Below, piece by piece: positions 21,791-30,439 of a stretch of 38,170 bases of DNA. A program made the translations under genes and the position numbers. Within the stretch, counting starts at the first letter, position 1. Each line of letters begins with the position of its first letter. Below the pieces are notes generated by a model, which saw only the letters and a program-made list of their open reading frames with translations, was not told where the DNA came from and did no database searches. This DNA comes from Treponema denticola. Lineage in GTDB: Bacteria > Spirochaetota > Spirochaetia > Treponematales > Breznakiellaceae. The stretch covers positions 1,221 through 39,390 of the forward strand of contig DYPP01000017.1 in NCBI GenBank assembly GCA_020719845.1, written 5' to 3'.

Positions 21791-22042
21791 ATGAGTCAGA
21801 TTACGATTCGGGATCTTACTCCCCAAGTTGAGGCTCTCGTGCGGCATAGAGCTATGATGGAGGGGGTCAGCGTGAGCAAGGCCATTTCGGAGATGCTGGC
21901 CGAGCTTGCCGGGCTCAAGCCTCAGGATAAGCGGTACCGGGATCTTTCCGCCTTATCCGGTACCTGGAGCGCCGCGGAAACGGAAAAGTTCGATCGCACC
22001 CAGGAGTATTTTGGGCAGATAGACGAGGAAGTCTGGAAATGA
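21791..22042 (+). CDS. Antitoxin with ribbon-helix-helix domain (FitA/VapB-like)
   Basis: This 83-residue protein begins MSQITIRDLTPQVEALVRHRA, a ribbon-helix-helix fold of the FitA/StbC/VapB type (strand ITIRDL, then two helices through SVSKAISEMLAEL). The acidic C-terminus, with TWSAAETEKFDRTQEYFGQIDEEVW, is expected to bind and block the PIN toxin active site. AAAGGAGG lies 5 bp before the ATG. Its stop overlaps the toxin ATG by 4 bp. It probably represses its own promoter through the palindrome in the promoter spacer. Confidence 0.85.
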   Translation: MSQITIRDLTPQVEALVRHRAMMEGVSVSKAISEMLAELAGLKPQDKRYRDLSALSGTWSAAETEKFDRTQEYFGQIDEEVWK

Positions 22043-22428
22043 CCTATACAATGGACACGAACGCCTATTCGGCTTTCAAAGCGGGTGATGGGGCAGTAAA
22101 GCGCCTGCTCGAAGAAGCCGAACAGATCATTGTCCCGGTAGTGGTGATCGGGGAGCTTATGGCCGGTTTTATGCAAGGGAATCGGCTTTCCGCCAATACG
22201 GCCGAACTGGATGAGTTCCTGAGGCAAGCCGGAATCGTTGTTCATGAGATTTCCACAGCCGACGCCCATCGCTATGCATCCCTCGTCAAAGCTCTTCGGG
22301 TTGCCGGCACACCCGTCCCGGTGAATGACGTATGGATCGCCGCCGTTGCGCTGGCCGAAGGCGCCAGGGTCCTTACCCGGGACGCCCATTTCCAGAAGCT
22401 GCCGGGGATCGTGCCGATTTCCTGGTAG
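22039..22428 (+). CDS. PIN-domain toxin (VapC-type ribonuclease)
   Basis: This 129-residue PIN domain has the acidic residues of the VapC catalytic site in place: Asp6 (MDTNAYSAF), Glu39 (VVIGELMAG), Asp97 (NDVWIAA) and Asp115 (TRDAHFQ). VapC toxins are magnesium-dependent endoribonucleases that often cut tRNA or rRNA. The gene overlaps its antitoxin by 4 bp and is surely translated with it. Length is standard. The RNA target is not predictable here. It converges with the NifX-like operon across a 95-bp gap in which I see no clear terminator. Confidence 0.9.
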   Translation: MTYTMDTNAYSAFKAGDGAVKRLLEEAEQIIVPVVVIGELMAGFMQGNRLSANTAELDEFLRQAGIVVHEISTADAHRYASLVKALRVAGTPVPVNDVWIAAVALAEGARVLTRDAHFQKLPGIVPISW

Positions 22429-22523: not shown

Positions 22524-22940
22524 TCAATCCCCCCGGTCCTTTTTAATCAAAAGATTCAGGAAGTTCCGGTCTTCGCCTTTTTCCCATTCTTCCCGGGCGC
22601 GCTGATAATGCTTTTGCACTCTCAGGATGGCCTCCGGGATGGTGGGATCGTCCATGCGCAGGCACACGAACTGCTTCTTGATGCGCATGATGTTGGGTCC
22701 GAAGACGCTGGAAACCGCGGTGTTGACCTTTTCCTGCTTTAAGAGGCCCGTGATGCCGCCGGCCTTTTTGGGGTCCGCGTGTTCGGTTTCTTCTTCATCC
22801 ACCGTATTGACGATGCGCTTGACCAGGGTGGCCGCGGCTTCGTCGATATCGTAGATGTCGAAATACTTGGCGTCCCCGAAGTGCCGGGGCATGAAGGTGG
22901 TTCCGTCGTCGGTGGCAAAAGCCGCTCTCATACTCCACAT
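22524..22940 (-). CDS. NifX/NifB-type metal-cluster-binding protein, distal gene of the ORP-like operon
   Basis: This 138-residue protein is of the dinitrogenase iron-molybdenum cofactor biosynthesis superfamily (NifX/NifY/ORP fold). The typical family opening MRAAFATDDGTTFMPRHFGDAKYFDIYDI starts at residue 4, so a start at 22931 is also possible; 22940 was kept because GGAG is only 1 bp from the inner ATG. The middle resembles the family segment where the chain turns into the metal-binding pocket (VSSVFGPNIMRIKKQFV). The C-terminal helix is charged. It is the last gene of the operon, 15 bp after the preceding member. The cofactor is unknown. In Desulfovibrio the related ORP binds a Mo-Cu sulfide cluster. 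Confidence 0.75.
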   Translation of the reverse strand: MWSMRAAFATDDGTTFMPRHFGDAKYFDIYDIDEAAATLVKRIVNTVDEEETEHADPKKAGGITGLLKQEKVNTAVSSVFGPNIMRIKKQFVCLRMDDPTIPEAILRVQKHYQRAREEWEKGEDRNFLNLLIKKDRGD

Positions 22941-22955
22941 ATCGCCGGCCGCCCT

Positions 22956-23297
22956 TTAGACAAAGGCCTTGAGGGCGCCGCTTTTGTAGGCTTCGTAGGC
23001 TTGCTTGACCGTCATGTCGCCGGCGCCGACGAAGATCTTGAGGCTGGTCTTCTGCAGCACCGTCGCGGCGTTGCCGCCGGGTCCGTTGCCGGTGATCAGC
23101 ACGTCCGGCGCCAGGTCAAAGAGCTTCTGCGCGGTCTGGGGTCCAGCGCCGTGGGCGACGCCTTCCACGTCCCGGTTGTCCACGCTGGAAAGCGCGTCGG
23201 CGGCGTCATCGTAGACGACGATGTAGTCGGTACGTCCGAAACGGGCATCGATCTGGGCATCCCAGGCGGTCCCTTTGGCGGTAAATGCAATTTTCAT
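22956..23297 (-). CDS. NifX/NifB-type metal-cluster-binding protein (short)
   Basis: This 113-residue protein starts MKIAFTAKGTAWDAQIDARFGRTDYIVVYD, the N-terminal pattern of NifX/ORP-type proteins, and continues with HGAGPQTAQKLFDLAPDVLITGNGPGGNAATVL, the family loop near the cofactor. There are no cysteines, as in ORP itself. The ATG overlaps the stop of the ferredoxin-ATPase by 4 bp (ATGA) with GAGGAA upstream. The longer open frame to 23966 is a shadow of that ATPase. Its position directly after the two ATPases matches the gene order in ORP-like clusters of anaerobes. Confidence 0.85.
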   Translation of the reverse strand: MKIAFTAKGTAWDAQIDARFGRTDYIVVYDDAADALSSVDNRDVEGVAHGAGPQTAQKLFDLAPDVLITGNGPGGNAATVLQKTSLKIFVGAGDMTVKQAYEAYKSGALKAFV

Positions 23298-24187
23298 CGG
23301 TGTAATTCCTCGTATTCTACCAGCCCGAGCACGTTGCGCCAGGCCGCGGTCAGTGCTGCTTTGAGCACGCCGTTTCCGTATTCGACGATGGTCCGTTCGG
23401 CCACCATTGCCCGGGTAAAGTCTTCGTCGTAGGGCAAGGTAGCCAACAACGCGATGTCCTGTTCCTGTAGATAGGCGGTAATCCGCTGGGTCATGTCGGC
23501 GTTGATGTCCGCCTTGTTGATGATGCACCCCGTAGGAATGTTGAACTTGCGGACCAGTTCGTAGACCCGCTTGAGGTCGTGGATGCCCGAAACCGTCGGT
23601 TCGGTCACCAGCACCACAAAATCCGCCCCGGAAAGGGAAGAAACCACCGGACAGCCGATACCCGGCGATCCGTCCACCAGTACGTAGCGTTTGCCTTCGG
23701 CTTCCGCCCGGAGCTTGGCCTGCTTCTTGACGTGGGCCACCAGCTTGCCCGAATTTTCCGAGCCGATGCCCAGTTTGGCGTGGACCATGGTGAAGCCCGG
23801 CCGGGTACGGGAAACGTACCAGACGCCCGCCTTTTCCGGGTGGTTGGTGATCGCCTGCGTCGGGCAAACCCGGGCGCAGTAGCCGCAGCCTTCGCAATTC
23901 AGGGGATTGACCGTGTACGTACCGTCCCGGACGTCGATGGCCTTGAAGCGGCAGACCTGGGCGCATTTGCCGCAGGCGATGCAGGCGTCGGGATCGATGC
24001 GGGCGGTCTCGCCGGAGTAGAAATCCTCGCCCTGCTGCAGGTCGGGTTTTAAGAGCAGGTGCATGTCCGCGGCGTCCACGTCGCAGTCCGCGGCGATCAG
24101 ATCCGCCGCGCCGAGCACGCCGAAGGAGGCGGTGATGGACGTCTTGCCCGTGCCGCCCTTGCCGGAAATGACGACGATCTCTTTCAT
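23294..24187 (-). CDS. ParA/Mrp-type ATPase with ferredoxin insert (second copy)
   Basis: This 297-residue protein starts with a deviant Walker A, SGKGGTGKTS (residues 8-17), typical of the MinD/ParA/Mrp family. Residues about 60-115 are an inserted 2[4Fe-4S] ferredoxin with CIACGKCAQVC and CEGCGYCARVCP. The switch region DGSPGIGCPV and the LVTEPTVSG segment complete the ATPase. The architecture equals that of the paired MinD-like proteins of the Desulfovibrio ORP complex (DVU2103/DVU2104). It is thought to assemble or move a metal cluster, or to couple ATP hydrolysis to electron transfer. The ATG overlaps the stop of the first ATPase by 4 bp, so the two are made in step, consistent with a heterodimer. 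Confidence 0.93.
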   Translation of the reverse strand: MKEIVVISGKGGTGKTSITASFGVLGAADLIAADCDVDAADMHLLLKPDLQQGEDFYSGETARIDPDACIACGKCAQVCRFKAIDVRDGTYTVNPLNCEGCGYCARVCPTQAITNHPEKAGVWYVSRTRPGFTMVHAKLGIGSENSGKLVAHVKKQAKLRAEAEGKRYVLVDGSPGIGCPVVSSLSGADFVVLVTEPTVSGIHDLKRVYELVRKFNIPTGCIINKADINADMTQRITAYLQEQDIALLATLPYDEDFTRAMVAERTIVEYGNGVLKAALTAAWRNVLGLVEYEELHR

Positions 24188-25053
24188 GCGCGCTTCCTTT
24201 TCGGCAGGGCGCGGAGGTGGGCGGCGATCTTTTCCAGTTCGCGCTTGAATTCCGGCAGGACCGGATAGATCCGTTCCCCCCGGGAATACAGTTCCGCCGC
24301 CCGGCGGTCGTTGGGTATTTTGGCCAGCACGGGGATTTTTTCGGCGGCGCAGTAGTCGGCTACGGCGTCGTTGCCGATGCCGTGCCGGTTGATCACCACG
24401 CCGATGTCCTTGCCCAGTTCCCGCATCGTCTCCACCGCCAGCTTGAGGTCGTTGAGGCCGAAGGGCGTCGGTTCGGTCACCAGGATGACGAAGTCCGCGT
24501 CCTTGGACGCCTCGATGACCGGACAGGAGGTACCCGGCGGCGCGTCGTAGATCCGGTACGGATGGTCGCGGAAATTCTCTTTAATGTATTCCTTGGTCTG
24601 GGCGATGAGCGGAACCGCCTGTTCCTGCCCGATGTCCAGACGGCTTTCGACAAAGGTCATTTTGCCGAGCTCGCTGCGGGTGGAGGTACCCATGCGCAGG
24701 GGCACCATGGGCAGGGCGCCCACGGGACACAGCTCGGAGCAGGCGTAGCAACCGTGGCAGAGTTCGGGAAAGATCATGATTTCTTTGCCCAGCTTGATCA
24801 CAGCGTGAAAATTGCACACCTGGGTGCAGAGGCCGCAGAGGGTGCAGGCGTCGCTTTTCCACTCGGGAATCATCTTGAACTTGACTTCCCGGGCGGTTTC
24901 GGCGCCCTTGATGAAGAGTCCCGAATTGGGCTCTTCCACGTCCAGATCCACCAGTACGACGGGCTCATTTTCGGCCAGCAGGGCGGCAAGGTTGGTGGAT
25001 ACGGTGGTCTTGCCCGTGCCGCCCTTGCCGCTGGCGATGACGATATCCGCCAT
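24184..25053 (-). CDS. ParA/Mrp-type ATPase with ferredoxin insert (first copy)
   Basis: This 289-residue paralogue of the next gene starts MADIVIASGKGGTGKTTVSTNLAALL. The ferredoxin insert has CTLCGLCTQVC and CHGCYACSELCP (about residues 65-110). The switch residues APPGTSCPV and LVTEPTPFGLNDLKLAV are present. The ATG at 25051-25053 overlaps the stop of the zinc-ribbon protein by 1 bp (TGATG). The frame upstream to 25116 belongs to that gene in another frame. In ORP clusters two such ATPases occur side by side. The segment between the ferredoxin and the second Walker motif is longer and differs between the copies, suggesting each has a different partner. Confidence 0.93.
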   Translation of the reverse strand: MADIVIASGKGGTGKTTVSTNLAALLAENEPVVLVDLDVEEPNSGLFIKGAETAREVKFKMIPEWKSDACTLCGLCTQVCNFHAVIKLGKEIMIFPELCHGCYACSELCPVGALPMVPLRMGTSTRSELGKMTFVESRLDIGQEQAVPLIAQTKEYIKENFRDHPYRIYDAPPGTSCPVIEASKDADFVILVTEPTPFGLNDLKLAVETMRELGKDIGVVINRHGIGNDAVADYCAAEKIPVLAKIPNDRRAAELYSRGERIYPVLPEFKRELEKIAAHLRALPKRKRA

Positions 25054-25313
25054 CAGCTCTGTTTCCGGTCGTTGTATAGTTCTTCCCGCACCATGGTCTT
25101 GCCGCAGTTCGGGCATTTCAGGTCCGTGCAGGTTACGCCGGCCTGGTGGGGGACGCGCGTCTTGCAGGCGACGCAGAGACAGTAGCCGCTGGGTCCGTAC
25201 GCCCCGCCGCCCCGGCCCTGGCCGCGTCCACCGCCGCCCATGCCGCGGCCGCCGCCTCTTCCCGTGCCCGGACCGCCGCCGCCGGCGGGGCCCGTACCGT
25301 CTCCTCTGGGCAT
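25053..25313 (-). CDS. Gly-rich small protein with C-terminal zinc ribbon
   Basis: This 86-residue protein opens MPRGDGTGPAGGGGPGTGRGG, the motif that heads DUF5320-type proteins found with NifX/ORP genes. It then has a glycine/arginine-rich stretch to about residue 40 and a cysteine-rich end: CLCVACKTRVPHQ, then CTDLKCPNCGKTM, a likely rubredoxin-like or zinc-ribbon knuckle. AAGGAAG lies 8 bp before the ATG. Its gene is fused by 1 bp to the first ATPase. Such proteins are conserved in these clusters but have no known biochemical role. A small cluster carrier or scaffold is an inference. Confidence 0.75.
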   Translation of the reverse strand: MPRGDGTGPAGGGGPGTGRGGGRGMGGGGRGQGRGGGAYGPSGYCLCVACKTRVPHQAGVTCTDLKCPNCGKTMVREELYNDRKQS

Positions 25314-25340
25314 ACTGCTACTTCCTTGCGTCTATGGCCT

Positions 25341-25379
25341 GCGGGTCAACCCGCCGCCGGAACTTCCCGCGGGAAGTTC
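25341..25379 (-). other. Two tandem RNA hairpins within the ORP-like operon
   Basis: On the transcribed strand, a perfect 20-bp palindrome (25360-25379, GAACTTCCCG arm) overlaps the stop of the upstream NifX-like gene and is followed by GCGGG-TTGA-CCCGC (25341-25354). Neither has a U-run, so RNA processing or stability control is likelier than termination. Confidence 0.55.
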
Positions 25380-25725
25380 AATGGTCGCATTCGTTCTCAC
25401 CGATGCGCAGGGTGTCCGTCAGGTACTGGCGGACCAGCTCCTCGGGAGCCAACGCCGGCGCGCCGGCAAGAACCTCGATACCGAAAGACCGGAACAATTC
25501 CTGGGCGCGATCCCCCATGCCGCCGGCGATGATCAGCCCCACCTTCTGGTCCGCCAGCCACTTGGGCAGCAGGCCGGGCTCGTGGGGGGGCGGCACCAGT
25601 TCTTCCTGGGAAAGAATCTTTTCTTCCGCCGTGTTCGCGGTCAGCACCGCAAAAGTCCGACAGTGCCCAAAATGGGCGGTCAGCCGACCGTCAGCCAGGG
25701 GAATCGCGATCTTCAGAATATTCAT
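25378..25725 (-). CDS. NifX/NifB-type metal-cluster-binding protein (ORP-like)
   Basis: This 115-residue protein has the form of Desulfovibrio ORP and NifX: MNILKIAIPLADGRLTAHFGHCRTFAVL at the start, and VGLIIAGGMGDRAQELFRSFGIEVLAGA as the second half. The HFGHC segment and the GGMG loop are the family landmarks near the cofactor pocket. The C-terminus ends GENECDH, a family feature. CTGGAG lies about 7 bp before the ATG. Among the four paralogues here, this one is the most like ORP by length and motif order. The bound cluster (Fe, Mo or Mo-Cu) cannot be told from sequence. Confidence 0.88.
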   Translation of the reverse strand: MNILKIAIPLADGRLTAHFGHCRTFAVLTANTAEEKILSQEELVPPPHEPGLLPKWLADQKVGLIIAGGMGDRAQELFRSFGIEVLAGAPALAPEELVRQYLTDTLRIGENECDH

Positions 25726-25742
25726 GGGTTGCTCCAGTTGCC

Positions 25743-25757
25743 AATAGGATGCCTATT
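25743..25757 (-). other. Small stem-loop over the stop codon of the DUF5320-like gene
   Basis: AATAGG-CAT-CCTATT on the coding strand, a perfect 6-bp stem with a 3-base loop, covers the TAG stop. It lies between the Gly-rich gene and the ORP-like gene and adds to the hairpins that divide this operon. Confidence 0.4.
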
Positions 25758-26115
25758 TATCCTCGGTTTTCTGAACGTCCGTCAAGCGTTTGCGGATCGC
25801 CTTGAGCTCTTCTTCCAGGTATTCGGCTTGCCGCTCCAGGTTCCACTGCTCCATCTCCGGGGTGGGTTGGGCCACCGCCGGGGGCGCGTAGGGATACGCC
25901 GGTACGCCGGGGGCATAGCCCCGGCCCCAGCCCCGACCCCGACCGAAGCCGCCGCCGAAACCACCAAAACCACCGCCGAAACCCGCGCCGCGGCCCAAGC
26001 CGCGACCGCCGTAGGGATTCATGTATCCCGGACTTCCGCTTCCGGAGCAATAGCCCGCTCCCCGGCCCGTCATCGATCCCCTTCCGTTGGGACCAGTCCT
26101 GTCACCTCTGGGCAT
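25753..26115 (-). CDS. DUF5320-like Gly-rich protein
   Basis: This 120-residue protein starts MPRGDRTGPNGRGSMTGRGAGYC, a well-known opening of DUF5320 proteins from anaerobes. A Gly/Phe/Arg-rich repeat region (GGGFGGFGGGFGRGRGWGRG) covers about residues 35-65. A proline-rich linker follows, then a charged coiled-coil tail (EQWNLERQAEYLEEELKAIRKRL). AAGGAGG lies 6 bp before the ATG. The gene overlaps the end of the first NifX-like gene by 14 bp. DUF5320 genes are consistently linked to NifX/ORP and Mrp-type ATPase genes, but no activity is known. The coiled coil suggests a self-associating scaffold. Confidence 0.82.
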   Translation of the reverse strand: MPRGDRTGPNGRGSMTGRGAGYCSGSGSPGYMNPYGGRGLGRGAGFGGGFGGFGGGFGRGRGWGRGYAPGVPAYPYAPPAVAQPTPEMEQWNLERQAEYLEEELKAIRKRLTDVQKTEDK

Positions 26116-26515
26116 GATTACCTCCTTGCGTCCGCCATGGCCCGCCGGGGCCGCGGCCGTGCCGACGCCGTCGGCCGCCGCACCCGCATCCGGGCATGGA
26201 AAACGCGTCATTGTCCAATCGCCTTCCCATCCAGGCTTGAATCACCGTTTCCAGATCGCCGGCAACAAAGGGCAGCACGCGGATGCCCTGTTCCTGGGCC
26301 CGCGTTTCAACCTGCCGGGTAATCGCCCCGCAGATCAGCTCCCGTACGCCCTCTTGCCGCAGCAGCCGCAGCTTGGCGTCCGGATCGGCCTGATCCAGGT
26401 CCATTTCGTGCCGCTGGATTACCTGGGCGCCCCGGAGCTCCAGAATCAACGCGGTGCCGGCGGAATCGAATACCGGGGCGACGCGCTGGTTCCAGACGGT
26501 TATTGCCAACTTCAT
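26102..26515 (-). CDS. NifX/NifB-type metal-cluster-binding protein, first gene of the ORP-like operon
   Basis: This 137-residue protein begins MKLAITVWNQRVAPVFDSAG, the clear N-terminus of the family, and ends in MPGCGCGGRRRRHGRG, a Cys/Arg-rich tail seen in the long NifX-like proteins of ORP clusters. The middle has VRELICGAITRQVETRAQEQGIRVLPFVAGD. The ATG at 26513-26515 follows AAAAAGGG with only 1 bp spacing, and it stands about 13 bp after the GC of a sigma-54 promoter, so the leader would be only a couple of bases. The frame upstream to 26614 includes that promoter and was rejected. Function is probably binding or delivery of an Fe/Mo-type cluster. Confidence 0.85.
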   Translation of the reverse strand: MKLAITVWNQRVAPVFDSAGTALILELRGAQVIQRHEMDLDQADPDAKLRLLRQEGVRELICGAITRQVETRAQEQGIRVLPFVAGDLETVIQAWMGRRLDNDAFSMPGCGCGGRRRRHGRGPGGPWRTQGGNHAQR

Positions 26516-26527
26516 ACCCTTTTTATA

Positions 26528-26542
26528 GCATAAAGTGTGCCA
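26528..26542 (-). promoter_or_regulatory. Sigma-54 (RpoN) promoter of the ORP-like operon
   Basis: On the minus strand the sequence TGGCAC-ACTTT-ATGC has the GG and GC doublets separated by exactly 10 bp, the defining spacing of -24/-12 promoters, and the -24 box is consensus. It lies directly upstream of the first NifX-like gene, in the same neighbourhood as a sigma-54 activator gene (28187-29548). Confidence 0.75.
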
Positions 26543-26574
26543 ATCATATAAAACGAGGCGAATATTAGAAATTT

Positions 26575-26590
26575 GGCCGTCAAAACGGCC
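26575..26590 (+). other. Short hairpin, terminator-like toward the plus strand
   Basis: GGCCGT-CAAA-ACGGCC is a perfect 6-bp stem with a 4-base loop followed by TTTT on the plus strand. It lies 33 bp upstream of the sigma-54 promoter. No plus-strand gene ends here, so it may instead be a protein-binding palindrome or a block to antisense transcription. Confidence 0.35.
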
Positions 26591-26643
26591 TTTTAAGACG
26601 ATTCCACGCTGCACGAGCCGAAGGAATTAAATAACTGTCGCGG

Positions 26644-26649
26644 TATAAT
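26644..26649 (+). promoter_or_regulatory. Isolated TATAAT box upstream of the decarboxylase beta gene
   Basis: A perfect -10 hexamer on the plus strand without a recognisable -35 at the right distance. If used, it would give a leader of about 180 bases for the gene at 26834. Confidence 0.25.
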
Positions 26650-26668
26650 GTAGCACGCATAGAAATAT

Positions 26669-26710
26669 TGCAACATAAATGCGACAATATGTTGCATCTA
26701 TTTTGCGACA
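26669..26710. promoter_or_regulatory. Cluster of TGCRACA motifs, candidate activator-binding region (UAS)
   Basis: Four copies lie in 42 bp: TGCAACA (26669-26675), TGCGACA (26680-26686), inverted TGTTGCA (26690-26696) and TGCGACA (26704-26710). The first and third form a perfect 9-bp inverted repeat, TGCAACATA/TATGTTGCA, with a 10-bp centre. The cluster is centred about 150-160 bp upstream of the sigma-54 promoter, the usual place for enhancer-binding proteins, and lies between two divergent operons. Confidence 0.55.
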
Positions 26711-26833
26711 TAGTGCTATTCTTTCCGATGGCCCTTGTCGTCAAAGCGGCAGGTATGCGGACCGCCGTAGCCGTTGCGCTTCGACGTAGGCTATAGTAGC
26801 GATATATCCAACCCCTGACAGGAGAACTCCGGG

Positions 26834-27973
26834 ATGTTGCAAGAAATCGGCTATTTTTTCATTGCGGGAATCAGCGCCCTTGGTTGGCAGCAGGCCGTCA
26901 TGTACCTGGTGGGCGCCGTGCTGATCTGGCTGGCGGCGGCCAAAGACTACGAGCCCATGCTGCTGCTGCCCATCGGCTTCGGGGCCATCCTGGTCAACCT
27001 GCCCCTGGAAGTGGTCTGGGAACACGACGGCGTCGCGGGGGCGCTCAAAATTCTTTTTGAAGCCGGCATCCTGACCGAAATATTTCCCCTGCTGATCTTC
27101 ATCGGCGTCGGCGCCATGATCGATTTCAGCCCCCTCTTCCAGCGCCCCTGGCTGATGCTGTTCGGCGCCGCCGCCCACCTGGGCATCTTCATCACCATTT
27201 CCATCGCCGTGCTGCTGGGCTTCGACCTCAAGGAAGCGGCCTGCATCGGCGTCATCGGCGCCGCCGACGGTCCGACCACCATCTACATCACCACCAAGTT
27301 CGCCAAGCACCTGCTGGGTCCGATCATGGTGGTGGCCTACTCCTACATGTCCCTGGTGCCCATCATCCAGCCGCCGGTCATCCTGGCGCTGACCACCAAA
27401 AAGGAACGCCTGATCCACATGACCGCCGTGGACCGGCGGATTCCCAAAATCGTCACCGTTTCTTTTCCGGTCATCGTCACCCTGGTGGCCAGCCTGCTGG
27501 TGCCGATCGCGGCGCCGCTGATCGGCTTTCTGATGTTCGGCAACCTGGTGCGCGAGTCCGGCGTGCTGGCCAAGCTGTCCAGCACCGCCCAGAACGAACT
27601 TTCCAACCTGGTGACCCTGCTGTTGGGCATCACCGTGGGCGCGTCCATGCGGGCGGACAGTTTTCTGACCTTCGATACCCTGCTGATCATGGCGTTGGGC
27701 CTGCTGGCCTTCATCATCAACACCGCCGGGGGCGTGCTTTTTGCCAAGTTCATCAACCTTTTCCTGGTCAGGAAGATCAACCCCATGATCGGCGCCTGCG
27801 GTATTTCCGCCTTCCCGATGGCCAGCCGGGTCATCCAGAAAATGGCCCTCAAGGATGATCCGGGCAACATCATCCTGATGCACGCGGTCAGCGCCAACGT
27901 TTCCGGCCAAATAGGGTCGGTGGTGGCCGGAGGCCTGGTCCTGGCGCTGGTGCCCGTTCTGCTGAACGGCTAA
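26834..27973 (+). CDS. Sodium-pumping decarboxylase, membrane beta subunit
   Basis: This 379-residue, highly hydrophobic protein has about nine to eleven transmembrane segments and belongs to the OadB/MmdB/GcdB family, which moves sodium ions out of the cell as carboxybiotin is decarboxylated. The conserved pore segment GAADGPTTIYITTKFA carries Asp145, equivalent to the essential sodium-site Asp. The C-terminal IGACGISAFPMASRVIQKM and HAVSANVSGQIGSVVAGG match the second conserved region with the Asn/Ser sodium ligands. Length is normal. GGAG lies 10 bp before the ATG. The alpha (carboxyltransferase) and biotin carrier genes are not in this window, so the substrate among oxaloacetate, methylmalonyl-CoA, glutaconyl-CoA or malonate is open. 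Confidence 0.93.
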   Translation: MLQEIGYFFIAGISALGWQQAVMYLVGAVLIWLAAAKDYEPMLLLPIGFGAILVNLPLEVVWEHDGVAGALKILFEAGILTEIFPLLIFIGVGAMIDFSPLFQRPWLMLFGAAAHLGIFITISIAVLLGFDLKEAACIGVIGAADGPTTIYITTKFAKHLLGPIMVVAYSYMSLVPIIQPPVILALTTKKERLIHMTAVDRRIPKIVTVSFPVIVTLVASLLVPIAAPLIGFLMFGNLVRESGVLAKLSSTAQNELSNLVTLLLGITVGASMRADSFLTFDTLLIMALGLLAFIINTAGGVLFAKFINLFLVRKINPMIGACGISAFPMASRVIQKMALKDDPGNIILMHAVSANVSGQIGSVVAGGLVLALVPVLLNG

Positions 27974-27994
27974 AATTTTTATAGGAGCACGCGT

Positions 27995-28129
27995 ATGGAT
28001 ACGATCGCTTTTAACCAAAGTCTGGTGCTGGCCGGCGTCGGCATGGCCGTCCTGTTCGTTTTTATGGGCCTGATGATCCTGATCATCCACTATTTCCAGA
28101 TCATCGCGGGCAAATTCTCCGGCAAGTAG
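27995..28129 (+). CDS. Minimal gamma-like subunit of the decarboxylase (44 residues)
   Basis: The ATG at 27995 has AGGAG 7 bp upstream and starts 21 bp after the beta-subunit stop. The 44-residue product is a short N-terminus (MDTIAFNQSL), one transmembrane helix (about residues 11-36) and a lysine-bearing tail. OadG/MmdD-type gamma subunits have the same single N-terminal helix, but normally add a cytoplasmic, often proline-rich and metal-binding tail, which is missing here. It is too short for most gene finders. Position, ribosome site and helix together make it a real gene. Its role as a membrane anchor of the beta subunit is inference. Confidence 0.75.
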   Translation: MDTIAFNQSLVLAGVGMAVLFVFMGLMILIIHYFQIIAGKFSGK

Positions 28130-28186
28130 GAACCGCGCGCACGCCGCCGGCGCTGCGACCGCCGCCGGCGCGGCCGGACCCGCCCG

Positions 28187-29548
28187 CTAGTCCGTAGCCA
28201 GGTGGTATTTTTCCATTTTCCGGTACAGCGTAGCCCGATGGATGCCCAACAGGGCCGCCGCCCGGGACCGGTTCCAGCCGGTCTGTTCCAGGGCTTCCCG
28301 GATCAGGCGCTCTTCCGCGACGGCCCGGGAGGCGCGGAATTCATCCTGGGCACTGGTCTCCCGGGCACCCGCCGCCGAGGCGCCCTCGGGCGGCAGGCCC
28401 GGGGAGGCAACCCCGGCGGACCGCAGCTCCGGGGGCAGGTAGGATGCGTCGATCCGCGGCCGGGCGCAGAGCACCACTGCCCGTTCCACCACGTTTTCCA
28501 GCTCCCGGATATTCCCCGGCCAGGCGTAGGCGTACAGGGCGGCGTAGAAATCCTCGGTAAAACCCTGGATGGACTTGCCCATGCGCAGCTTGTAGGTCCG
28601 CAAGAAGTGCTCCGCCAGGTCCGGCAGGTCTTCCATGCGCCGCCTGAGGGGCGGCAGGGACAGGGTGATCACGTTGATGCGGTAGAACAGGTCCCGCCGA
28701 AAAGCGCCCTTCTCCACCAGTTCCCGCAGCGGCTGGTTGGTGGCGCAGACGATGCGCGCCGCCGTGCGCTCGGAAACCGTGGCTCCCAAGGGCTCGTAGA
28801 CCCCTTCCTGCAAAACCCGCAGCAGCTTGACCTGCATGGCCGGCGAAATATCGCCGATTTCATCCAGAAACAGGGTGCCCTTGTCGGCCTGCTTGAAGCG
28901 GCCCGGCTTGTCCTTGTCCGCGCCGGTAAAGGCGCCCTTCTTGTAGCCGAACAGCTCGGATTCCAGCAGCGTGTCCGGCAGGGCGCCGCAGTTGACCGCC
29001 ACGAAGGGACCCGCCGCGTGGGCGCTGCGGGCGTGGATGGCCCGGGCGGTGACTTCCTTGCCCGTGCCCGTTTCGCCTTCGATCAGCACCGTAGCCGCGC
29101 TGGCGGCCACCGTCGGCAGCAGGTCGACGACGGAACGCATCGCCGGGCTGCGGCTGGAATAGTCGCCCTCCACCGGACTGAGCCCCAGGTGCTGCTTCAG
29201 TTCTTCAATTTCCCGCAGGTCCCGGAAGGTCTCCGCGCCGCCGATGACCCGGCCGTCGGCGTCGACCAGCAGCGCCGTGGACACGCTGATCGGGATGCGC
29301 TCGCCCCCGGGGCTGATGCAGTACCCAGCGGCGTTGATGATCGGCTTGCCCGACCGCATCGTGCTGCGCAGCGGGCACTCGCGCTCGCACATGTTGGACT
29401 TGAACACCTCGTGGCAGAGCTTGCCCACCGCTTCGGCCCGGGGAATGCCGGTGATGGCTTCCGCCGCCCGGTTGAAGGACGTCACCCGCCACTGGGCGTC
29501 CACGGTGAAGACGCCGTCGGAAATGCTCTCCAGGATAATCTCCGTCAT
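28187..29548 (-). CDS. Sigma-54-dependent transcriptional activator with Cys-bearing PAS domain
   Basis: This 453-residue protein has an N-terminal PAS domain (1-118), an AAA+ central domain with Walker A GETGTGKE (158-165), GAFTGA (205-210, the sigma-54 contact loop) and Walker [11 protein letters not shown] (224-233), and a C-terminal Fis-type helix-turn-helix ([21 protein letters not shown]). The PAS domain holds Cys45, Cys54 and Cys58 in [16 protein letters not shown], an arrangement suited to redox or metal sensing. A homologous type of activator controls the ORP operons in Desulfovibrio (DVU2106), and the ORP-like operon here has a sigma-54 promoter, so it is the natural candidate regulator. 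The metallo-hydrolase gene precedes it by 51 bp on the same strand. Confidence 0.93.
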
Positions 29549-29599
29549 GTCCGTAGTGTACCCCTTGCCCAGTTTTCCGTCAGCGGCAGGAGCCGGGAG

Positions 29600-30439
29600 C
29601 TACCATTCGAACCGGCTCCCGGTGGCCAGCGGGCGGTAGCAGTCCAGGCCCGCCGCCATGGCGGCAACGCCCAGCGGACCGGTGCAGTGGCCCAGGGCGG
29701 CCAAGCGGCAGCGCGTCTGCGCCAGGTAGGAAACCGATTCGTCCAGCCGGACCTGGTCCGCCTCGACCAGGTGGGATCCGCCCACGACGGCCAGCAGGGT
29801 TTTGCCGAAGGCTTGCTGCACCGCGTCCAGCATGTTCATCATCCCCGGATGGGCACAGCCCAGCAGCACCGCCACGCCCTCGGGCAGGTCGAGGGCCAGG
29901 CAGACCTCGTCCCGAAAGTCATCCGGCACGCGGCCTTCCGGCCGATCCACCACAAAACGGGGATTCGGCCGTTCCCGGTCGTGCCGGCGGGGAAAGCCCT
30001 GCACCGCGTACACCCCGGGCAGCAGTTCCCGGACGCTGGTTGTATCCCCGGCGGCGCCGACGACCCGGTGCTCGACGCCCCGCTCCCGCAGGTAGTCCCG
30101 GTCAAAGTCGACGCCGTTGCAGCGCGGCGCCGGCGCTTCGTCCGACCACTTGCGGTCCAAAAATCCCGGTCCGGTGTAGAGGGGTCCACGATAGCCGACC
30201 CCGTCCAACAGGCGACGCAGGCCGCCGGAATGGTCGTAGTGGCCGTGGCTGACCACCAGGGCTTCCGCCCGCCCGACGTCCACGCCCAACAAGCGGGCGT
30301 TGTCCACAAAGGCGCCGCTTTTTCCCGTGTCAAAAAGCAGCGCCCTTCCCTCGCTTTCGATAAAAAAGGACAAGCCGTGTTCCGCGGTTGTGCCCGCCGG
30401 TCCCGGGCTGTTTTCCATTAGAGTCGTAACGCGCAGCAT
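29600..30439 (-). CDS. Metallo-beta-lactamase-fold hydrolase
   Basis: This 279-residue protein has the metal motif SHGHYDHSGG (His65, His67, Asp69, His70), a later metal ligand in GCAHPGMMN and a final LGHCTG. This subset resembles the family often labelled 7,8-dihydropterin-6-methyl-4-(beta-D-ribofuranosyl)-aminobenzene-5'-phosphate synthase, proteins common beside NifX/ORP and sigma-54 activator genes. The ATG at 30437-30439 has GAGG 4 bp upstream; the opening up to 30475 lacks family similarity. A TTGACA (30470-30475) with a 17-bp spacer to TAAGGT lies upstream, but it would put the start codon only 7 bp after the -10. The substrate is unknown; a pterin-linked function in the metal-cluster pathway is speculation. 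Confidence 0.88.
   Translation of the reverse strand: MLRVTTLMENSPGPAGTTAEHGLSFFIESEGRALLFDTGKSGAFVDNARLLGVDVGRAEALVVSHGHYDHSGGLRRLLDGVGYRGPLYTGPGFLDRKWSDEAPAPRCNGVDFDRDYLRERGVEHRVVGAAGDTTSVRELLPGVYAVQGFPRRHDRERPNPRFVVDRPEGRVPDDFRDEVCLALDLPEGVAVLLGCAHPGMMNMLDAVQQAFGKTLLAVVGGSHLVEADQVRLDESVSYLAQTRCRLAALGHCTGPLGVAAMAAGLDCYRPLATGSRFEW

Follow-up and report, generated by a model that had tools for sequence, protein, structure and literature searches.

How is an orange protein (ORP)-type gene cluster switched on in a spirochaete, and where do its parts come from? These questions are raised by a stretch of 38,170 nucleotides, referred to here as the window, from contig DYPP01000017.1 (C36 in our numbering) of assembly GCA_020719845.1, deposited as Treponema denticola; the genome comprises 3.3 Mb in 252 contigs and is rated 99.93% complete. 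The system occupies a minus-strand run of eight genes from 26515 down to 22524. We consider it likely that these genes form a sigma-54-controlled ORP-type metal or Fe-S cluster operon of an anaerobic spirochaete, an explanation that joins a leaderless start of the mRNA with a chimeric core. Loci, genomes and contigs of our survey carry L, G and C numbers.

Sigma-54 promoter and predicted start of the mRNA

An initial annotation made from the letters alone had described eight minus-strand genes, a promoter, upstream repeats, an activator and a metallo-hydrolase, and gene calls, Pfam and motif searches recovered all of them at the positions given in Table 1. The sequence TGGCACACTTTATGC at 26542-26528 is the only match to TGGCAC-N5-ATGC in the window (chance mean 0.10; one present in 10 of 100 shuffles). 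A stricter pattern ending in TTGCW had no match in the window since the -12 element reads ATGC. Transcription from sigma-54 promoters usually starts about 12 nt past the GC of the -12 element. Exactly 12 nt lie between this GC and the ATG of NifX1, the first gene. Therefore, the transcript is predicted to start at the AUG of NifX1, at about 26516-26515. The start-site passage of a Campylobacter jejuni study, as far as its text was available, is compatible with this rule. As the distance between GC and ATG is too short for a working Shine-Dalgarno sequence, a leaderless sigma-54 mRNA is predicted, and the 5' end of the NifX1 mRNA probably coincides with the start codon. The prediction of a leaderless mRNA from the promoter spacing is an addition to the initial annotation.

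The same layout was found in relatives. A search of 392 genomes of the phylum gave 34 with a NifX1 match (E 1e-6), and the spacing was surveyed at 30 of these loci. At 24 of them, window included, the ATG follows the GC after 11-14 nt (11 nt in one, 12 in ten, 13 in twelve and 14 in one), and ten family codes are represented among these 24 loci. From locus to locus the sequence separating GC and ATG varies, whereas promoter and spacing are kept. As a background we opened 39 sigma-54-like sites, comprising all nine of the own genome and 30 of the 54 in three relatives. Sixteen were flagged as lying inside a frame, including the window's own promoter, which is covered by an overlapping frame; one of the remaining 23 is the NifX1 promoter of G026, which leaves 22 comparison sites. 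An ATG at 11-14 nt was present at two of these intergenic sites (L187 and L196), in L188 a GTG follows after 10 nt, and four of the 22 lack an 80-codon frame in the 200 nt downstream. L196 belongs to an aconitase-like gene, named by eye. The sigma-54-like pattern exceeded its backward control in the own genome (9 vs 2), in G026 (22 vs 2) and in G045 (14 vs 1), with a smaller excess in G270 (18 vs 9). Moreover, Shine-Dalgarno leaders were seen behind several of the other sigma-54-like promoters in these genomes, among them those of peroxiredoxin, Dps-like and ABC genes.

Two observations on these sites stand on their own. L187 (own genome, C178:348-363) precedes a gene for a 213-residue protein, membrane-like by eye, with the same 12-nt distance from sigma-54 site to ATG. 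In both the own genome (L189, C210) and G026 (L038:12676-15037), a sigma-54-like promoter precedes a peroxiredoxin gene that lies beside a second sigma-54 activator, and both loci have Shine-Dalgarno leaders.

We compared our results with the available parts of six papers (PMC3897727, PMC6345978, PMC4641369, PMC5243855, PMC3847290, PMC3616915). Leaderless mRNAs have been mapped in Leptospira interrogans, C. jejuni and Sinorhizobium meliloti (PMC5243855, PMC3847290, PMC3616915). Like these, the mRNA analyzed here would have its AUG at or next to the transcription start, as predicted from the spacing. In contrast, the available text ties the leaderless genes of the three species to no conserved sigma-54 operon, and those of C. 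jejuni to sigma-70 -10 boxes. No description of a conserved leaderless sigma-54 operon was met in the accessible start-site literature, nor any relevant link between orange protein and spirochaetes; most subscription journals lay outside the search, so that absence from print is not established.

Enhancer-like repeats and the activator

Four half-sites of the form TGTYGCA/TGCRACA lie 127-168 bp upstream of the -24 element. TGTYGCA itself is not in excess in the whole window (6 seen vs 6.8 expected), and four of the six fall within the 42 bp of this repeat region. Each of the paired forms TGYRACA-N1..8-TGTYGCA and TGTYGCA-N1..8-TGCRACA has a single place in the 3.3 Mb genome, both of them at this locus, and the backward controls gave none. 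The motif had first been read from the 23 regions that precede NifX1-type starts (the window is one of them), and in these we counted 41 half-sites in 13 regions (mean 2.3, maximum 10 in 300 shuffles) and 17 TYGCA-N3/4-TGCRA palindromes in 14 regions (mean 0.12, maximum 2 in 300 shuffles). The repeats of the window are paired half-sites with spacings unlike those of the strict palindrome. In L160, upstream of 6868, the inverted repeats read AGTAGCA...TGCTACT-like and not TGTYGCA, which suggests a drift in the DNA specificity of the activator.

The genome has one rpoN match. The PAS domain of the activator contains Cys45, Cys54 and Cys58. In a 27-row set, each of the 23 ORP-linked activators that could be read keeps these cysteines and none of the three others does, the activator of L096 being masked and L125 and L162 being near copies. 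The second copy of L038, L064 and the first copy of L119 were set aside as non-cognate activators; they have long branches and no three-Cys PAS domain and were classed after this had been seen. Given the three cysteines and the kind of system, the activator may sense metal or redox state.

A profile scan of genome contigs with a seven-row MinD2 alignment yielded at least 442 relatives, of which the best 80 were kept. Among these named loci, six have NifX1 together with a three-Cys activator, two NifX1 alone, one the activator alone and 71 neither. The activator thus accompanies 6 of 8 NifX1 loci vs 1 of 72 others (Fisher p 6e-7), a comparison in which rows are related, contigs are short and the masked L096 counts as lacking it. 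It directly adjoins the NifX1 relative in L099, L101, L124 and L125. Furthermore, 14 of the 18 regions opened around NifX1 matches in the phylum contain the three-Cys activator. A metallo-hydrolase gene was present in 10 of these 18 regions, in six of them between NifX1 and MinD1 (L165, L169, L171-L174), and matches in 17 of the 80 named loci, at an overall identity of 22-38%; since the superfamily is large, this link is suggestive only. The proposal of sigma-54 control in the initial annotation agrees, by sequence, with the presence of rpoN and with the recurrence of promoter, activator and enhancer-like repeats beside NifX1 in relatives. A dedicated activator with a private enhancer is likely.

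Operon genes and comparison with Desulfovibrio

As first described, the operon encodes four NifX-type proteins, all of which pass the PF02579 cut-off of Pfam, and two CbiA/ParA ATPases with two 4Fe-4S motifs each; in the alignment of MinD2 from the window and six relatives the eight motif cysteines are invariant. A phmmer search of the PDB connected NifX3 with ORP (2wfb, 3.9e-12) and with 1rdu (9.8e-10), which we take to be a Thermotoga structure. NifX2 covers positions 264-365 of 365 of the NCBIfam model for MrpORP (NF041136, 4.3e-36, 125 bits), that is, the Di-Nase domain without the ATPase; its nearest PDB entries are 1t3v (4e-10) and 1o13 (5e-10), with ORP at 0.04. The expected phylogenetic link to ORP proteins was thereby borne out, whereas the comparison with the NifX equivalog stayed at 29.5 bits, against a cut-off of 112. 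The PDB search gave nothing below E 0.05 for NifX1 and NifX4, and the fold of NifX1 was assigned by Pfam alone. The Gly-rich Cys protein had no Pfam match and has a 71% relative in L037. In L038 (9643-10959) NifX1 and MinD1 form one open reading frame of 438 amino acids, a natural fusion that hints at contact between both proteins.

Table 1. Features of the operon and its surroundings with their positions in the window.
Feature	Position	Strand	Evidence and remarks
NifX1	26515-26102	-	First gene; PF02579 7.6e-8; ICGA motif, MPGC and Arg/Gly-rich tail
DUF5320 protein, Gly-rich	26115-25753	-	PF17253 1.1e-24; candidate Orp5-like
NifX2	25725-25378	-	Free-standing MrpORP C-terminal (Di-Nase) domain; NF041136 4.3e-36
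Gly-rich protein, six Cys, Zn-ribbon-like	25313-25053	-	NCBIfam matches weak, below cut-off
MinD1, P-loop ATPase with two inserted 4Fe-4S motifs (Orp3/Orp4-like)	25053-24184	-	CbiA/ParA Pfam
MinD2, second P-loop ATPase with two 4Fe-4S motifs (Orp3/Orp4-like)	24187-23294	-	CbiA/ParA Pfam
NifX3, ORP (Orp8) homologue	23297-22956	-	2wfb 3.9e-12, 1rdu 9.8e-10
NifX4, divergent NifX-family protein	22940-22524	-	PF02579 3e-8
Sigma-54 -24/-12 promoter, TGGCAC-N5-ATGC	26542-26528	-	-12 GC at 26529-26528
Putative enhancer, TGTCGCA-N7-TGCAACA-N3-TGTCGCA-N4-TGTTGCA	26669-26710	-	Half-site search
oadB-like gene	26834-27973	+	PF03977 3.3e-148; between operon and activator
Sigma-54 activator	29548-28187	-	PAS - Sigma54_activat - HTH_8; GAFTGA loop; Fis-type HTH
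Metallo-beta-lactamase-fold hydrolase	30439-29600	-	Lactamase_B Pfam; similar genes recur in related clusters

In Desulfovibrio vulgaris the ORP operons DVU2103-DVU2109 with the activator DVU2106 have, according to the available sections of two papers, a sigma-54 promoter and palindromic sites upstream (PMC3897727, PMC6345978). Both systems share an ORP homologue, two ferredoxin-type ATPases and the C-terminal domain of MrpORP, as well as a sigma-54 promoter, an enhancer-binding activator and upstream repeat sites, the latter three in the window by sequence only. However, the two-domain MrpORP, in which an Mrp/NBP35 ATPase is fused to the Di-Nase domain, is represented in the window by the Di-Nase half only, as NifX2; the best Mrp-type protein of the genome lies on contig C120. 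The window has one operon where D. vulgaris has two divergent ones, and its four NifX-family genes with NifX1 at the front do not follow the D. vulgaris layout. A promoter figure legend for D. vulgaris marks Shine-Dalgarno sequences (PMC3897727, seen in part), whereas the mRNA of the window is predicted to be leaderless. The related ATPase pair of a named Desulfovibrio, L123, a proxy for Orp3/Orp4 themselves, is 41% and 49% identical, and the gene before its MinD1 matched the DUF5320 protein at 0.0076, below the cut-off, so that the Orp5 link is weak. The earlier view of an ORP-type system that resembles the Desulfovibrio set with additional NifX paralogues thus appears partly right: the ORP type holds, but not a Desulfovibrio complex in the strict sense, given the missing two-domain MrpORP, the single operon and a core shared with several phyla.

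Relatives and origin of the core

The order of the genes around the ATPases recurs, among the best 80 relatives, in Bacteroidales, Cloacimonadota, Neomarinimicrobiota, Calditrichota, Campylobacterota and some spirochaetes; the activator is absent from most of these loci. Clusters of NifX, DUF5320 and MinD genes in Bacteroidales, Cloacimonadota, Neomarinimicrobiota and others (among L047-L074) have the common order DUF5320 - Gly/Cys protein - NifX2 - MinD1 - MinD2 - NifX3 (- NifX4), with MinD2 about 53-67% identical to that of the window. They differ from it in having no NifX1 and no three-Cys activator in the stretches examined. The synteny check in spirochaetes proposed earlier gave a second type: L125, L158, L159 and L164 have the order activator - NifX1 - DUF5320 - NifX3 - MinD1 - MinD2 - Mrp-like - NifX2. 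These clusters resemble the window in activator, NifX1 and a 12-nt promoter spacing, and differ from it in a third ATPase before NifX2 and in another MinD2 lineage.

The phylogenies point in the same two directions. In a tree of 98 MinD2 rows the window groups with L038, L037 and L087 (99). This clade is nested in a multi-phylum clade of 32 rows (97), in which all rows other than the window and L038, 30 in number, were scored by hand as activator-less; L064, a member of this clade, does have an activator of an unlike kind, and short contigs, for example L087, may end before an activator gene. Approximately unbiased (AU) tests on a reduced set of 31 rows rejected two arrangements: window and L038 joined with L125, L158 and L159 (p 8e-56), and 17 of the 20 activator rows united in one clade (p 7e-4). 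In the activator tree, the window joins L038 (96) and then L157 (92); the NifX1 tree is weaker (89). In G045 the head of activator, NifX1 and DUF5320 (L157) and the core (L037) lie on separate contigs. A full-length MinD2-type match (E 1e-49 or better) occurred in 9 genomes among 58 relatives, the own one included, eight of which were examined around the match, so the core is patchy within the order.

These comparisons suggest that the operon is a chimera of an inherited regulatory head, comprising activator and NifX1, and a foreign or exchanged ATPase core. Judged by its adjacency, DUF5320 probably belongs to the inherited head. The head looks common to other spirochaetes, and the core looks like a type known otherwise from Bacteroidota, Cloacimonadota, Campylobacterota and others, where this activator is mostly missing. 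A spirochaete origin of the DNA, already assumed in the initial annotation, agrees with the nearest named MinD2 relative among the matches listed, that of Spirochaetes bacterium RIFOXYC1_FULL_54_7 (73-75% identity). It also agrees with the activator tree, in which G363 (L162), a genome of the same class, lies close to Spirochaetae bacterium HGW-Spirochaetae-2 (end branches 0.022 and 0.015).

Weighing of alternative explanations

Several results weigh against a leaderless, activator-driven operon with an exchanged core. The gap between promoter and gene in the window holds AAAAAGGGT directly before the ATG, which is Shine-Dalgarno-like; it lies too close to the ATG for this role and at or before the predicted start. 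Six of the 30 NifX1 loci lack the 11-14 nt spacing: L132 has 23 nt, a Shine-Dalgarno leader and a -12 GT, L138 and L139 have 8 or 23 nt, L140 has 9 or 24 nt, L147 has a weak site only and L153 gave no alignment. Named loci outside the phylum mostly have longer distances (24 nt in L076, 25 in L107, 34 in L101, 34 or 13 in L124, 45 or 60 in L119), and L099 and L118 show no good sigma-54 site. Two genes unrelated to ORP, those of L187 and L196, belong to the same spacing class. The p values for the spacing (24/30 vs 2/22, Fisher p 5.7e-7; vs 2/18 after dropping the four frameless sites, p 3.6e-6) overstate the difference because rows are related and the class was noticed before testing. The strict palindrome is missing in nine of the 23 regions, window and L038 included; six of these nine have half-sites, and L160, L101 and L124 have neither, yet carry other inverted repeats. 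Besides, the activator of the window lies 1.7 kb from the operon and is separated from it by the oadB-like gene. The core does not depend on the switch, as it occurs without the activator in L037 and elsewhere, and the groups of the AU tests were defined by activator content with the full tree already known.

Two alternatives keep the ORP-type operon and change its start. If most transcription came from a different promoter, of the sigma-70 type and giving a normal leader, and the sigma-54 site were secondary or decayed, this would fit the Shine-Dalgarno-like sequences that DUF5320, NifX2 and the Gly-rich gene each have of their own, and the core of L037, which has no such promoter just upstream. 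However, the only sigma-70-like site at 26400-26900 lies on the opposite strand and is not above chance, a properly spaced Shine-Dalgarno sequence before the NifX1 ATG is absent from the window and, by reading, from the other leaderless-type loci, and promoter and spacing are conserved while the sequence between GC and ATG is not. We regard this explanation as unlikely. An ordinary sigma-54 leader, with the true transcription start further upstream or with another start codon for NifX1, is unlikely as well. Sigma-54 starts do vary by a few bases, and the C. jejuni paper in its available part gives a distance of 8-13 nt from motif to start. Two starts are possible in each of L166-L168, and in L129 and L133 an in-frame start lies at the GC or ahead of it. 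Nevertheless, the majority of leaderless-type loci offer no in-frame start other than the ATG at 11-14 nt between GC and first conserved strand, later starts (for example a TTG two codons on; L144, L145) would cut into or next to this strand, and a start shifted by 5 nt would still leave no ribosome-binding site.

A different function would apply if the NifX-like genes served the assembly of the nitrogenase cofactor FeMo-co under a NifA-like activator. PF02579 is named after FeMo-co, NifX4 touches the nifX model TIGR02663 and the activator scores on nifA, but both scores lie under their cut-offs (for nifA 340 vs 529). The genome has no match to the nitrogenase component family PF00148 and no NifB above the cut-off; the single weak NifB match (25.3 bits) is a lone NifX-type gene on contig C43. 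With rpoN present and these two absent, the operon looks unlike a nitrogenase appendage, and this function is very improbable. An operon with a predicted leaderless sigma-54 start and a probably chimeric core remains the explanation that we prefer.

Other genes in and beyond the window

The NifX-type gene on contig C43 (L045), the fifth in the genome, was set aside as no ORP genes were seen around it; it adjoins a 2-amino-3-ketobutyrate CoA ligase-like gene, named by eye. The oadB-like gene, for a sodium-pump decarboxylase subunit, is absent from the initial annotation; it borders the same intergenic region as the enhancer repeats. We treated it as outside the system; a second copy about 4 kb from the related cluster L061 may be chance. 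Just past the end of the operon, at 21791-22428 (+), lies a pair of genes for 83 and 129 amino acids, the second PIN-like by eye, which looks like a VapBC-type toxin-antitoxin.

Proposed mechanism and implications

In the mechanism that we propose, the activator would sense metal or redox state via its three PAS cysteines, bind the repeats and make sigma-54 polymerase initiate at the NifX1 AUG, which would give a leaderless mRNA translated from its 5'-AUG. With ATP and their 4Fe-4S clusters, the two ATPases may load NifX-family carriers with a metal-sulfur cluster or move one onto them. As NifX1 mostly co-occurs with the activator, it would be the likeliest link between cluster status and regulation. 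A broader statement, for which we see less than an even chance, is that throughout Spirochaetota the ORP operon is launched as a leaderless mRNA from an enhancer-driven sigma-54 promoter, with NifX1 as the dedicated cluster-status partner of the three-Cys PAS activator, and that this feedback module of activator, enhancer and leaderless NifX1 was kept while the core was exchanged for the type of another phylum.

What ORP clusters do in the many anaerobes that have them is unclear; a dedicated regulator whose enhancer has a single place in the genome offers a direct handle on the signal. If true, a sigma-54 promoter flush with the start codon in ten family groups would couple leaderless translation to the form of bacterial transcription that is under the tightest control, and the exchange of a core behind a regulatory head would be an example of operon evolution by modules.

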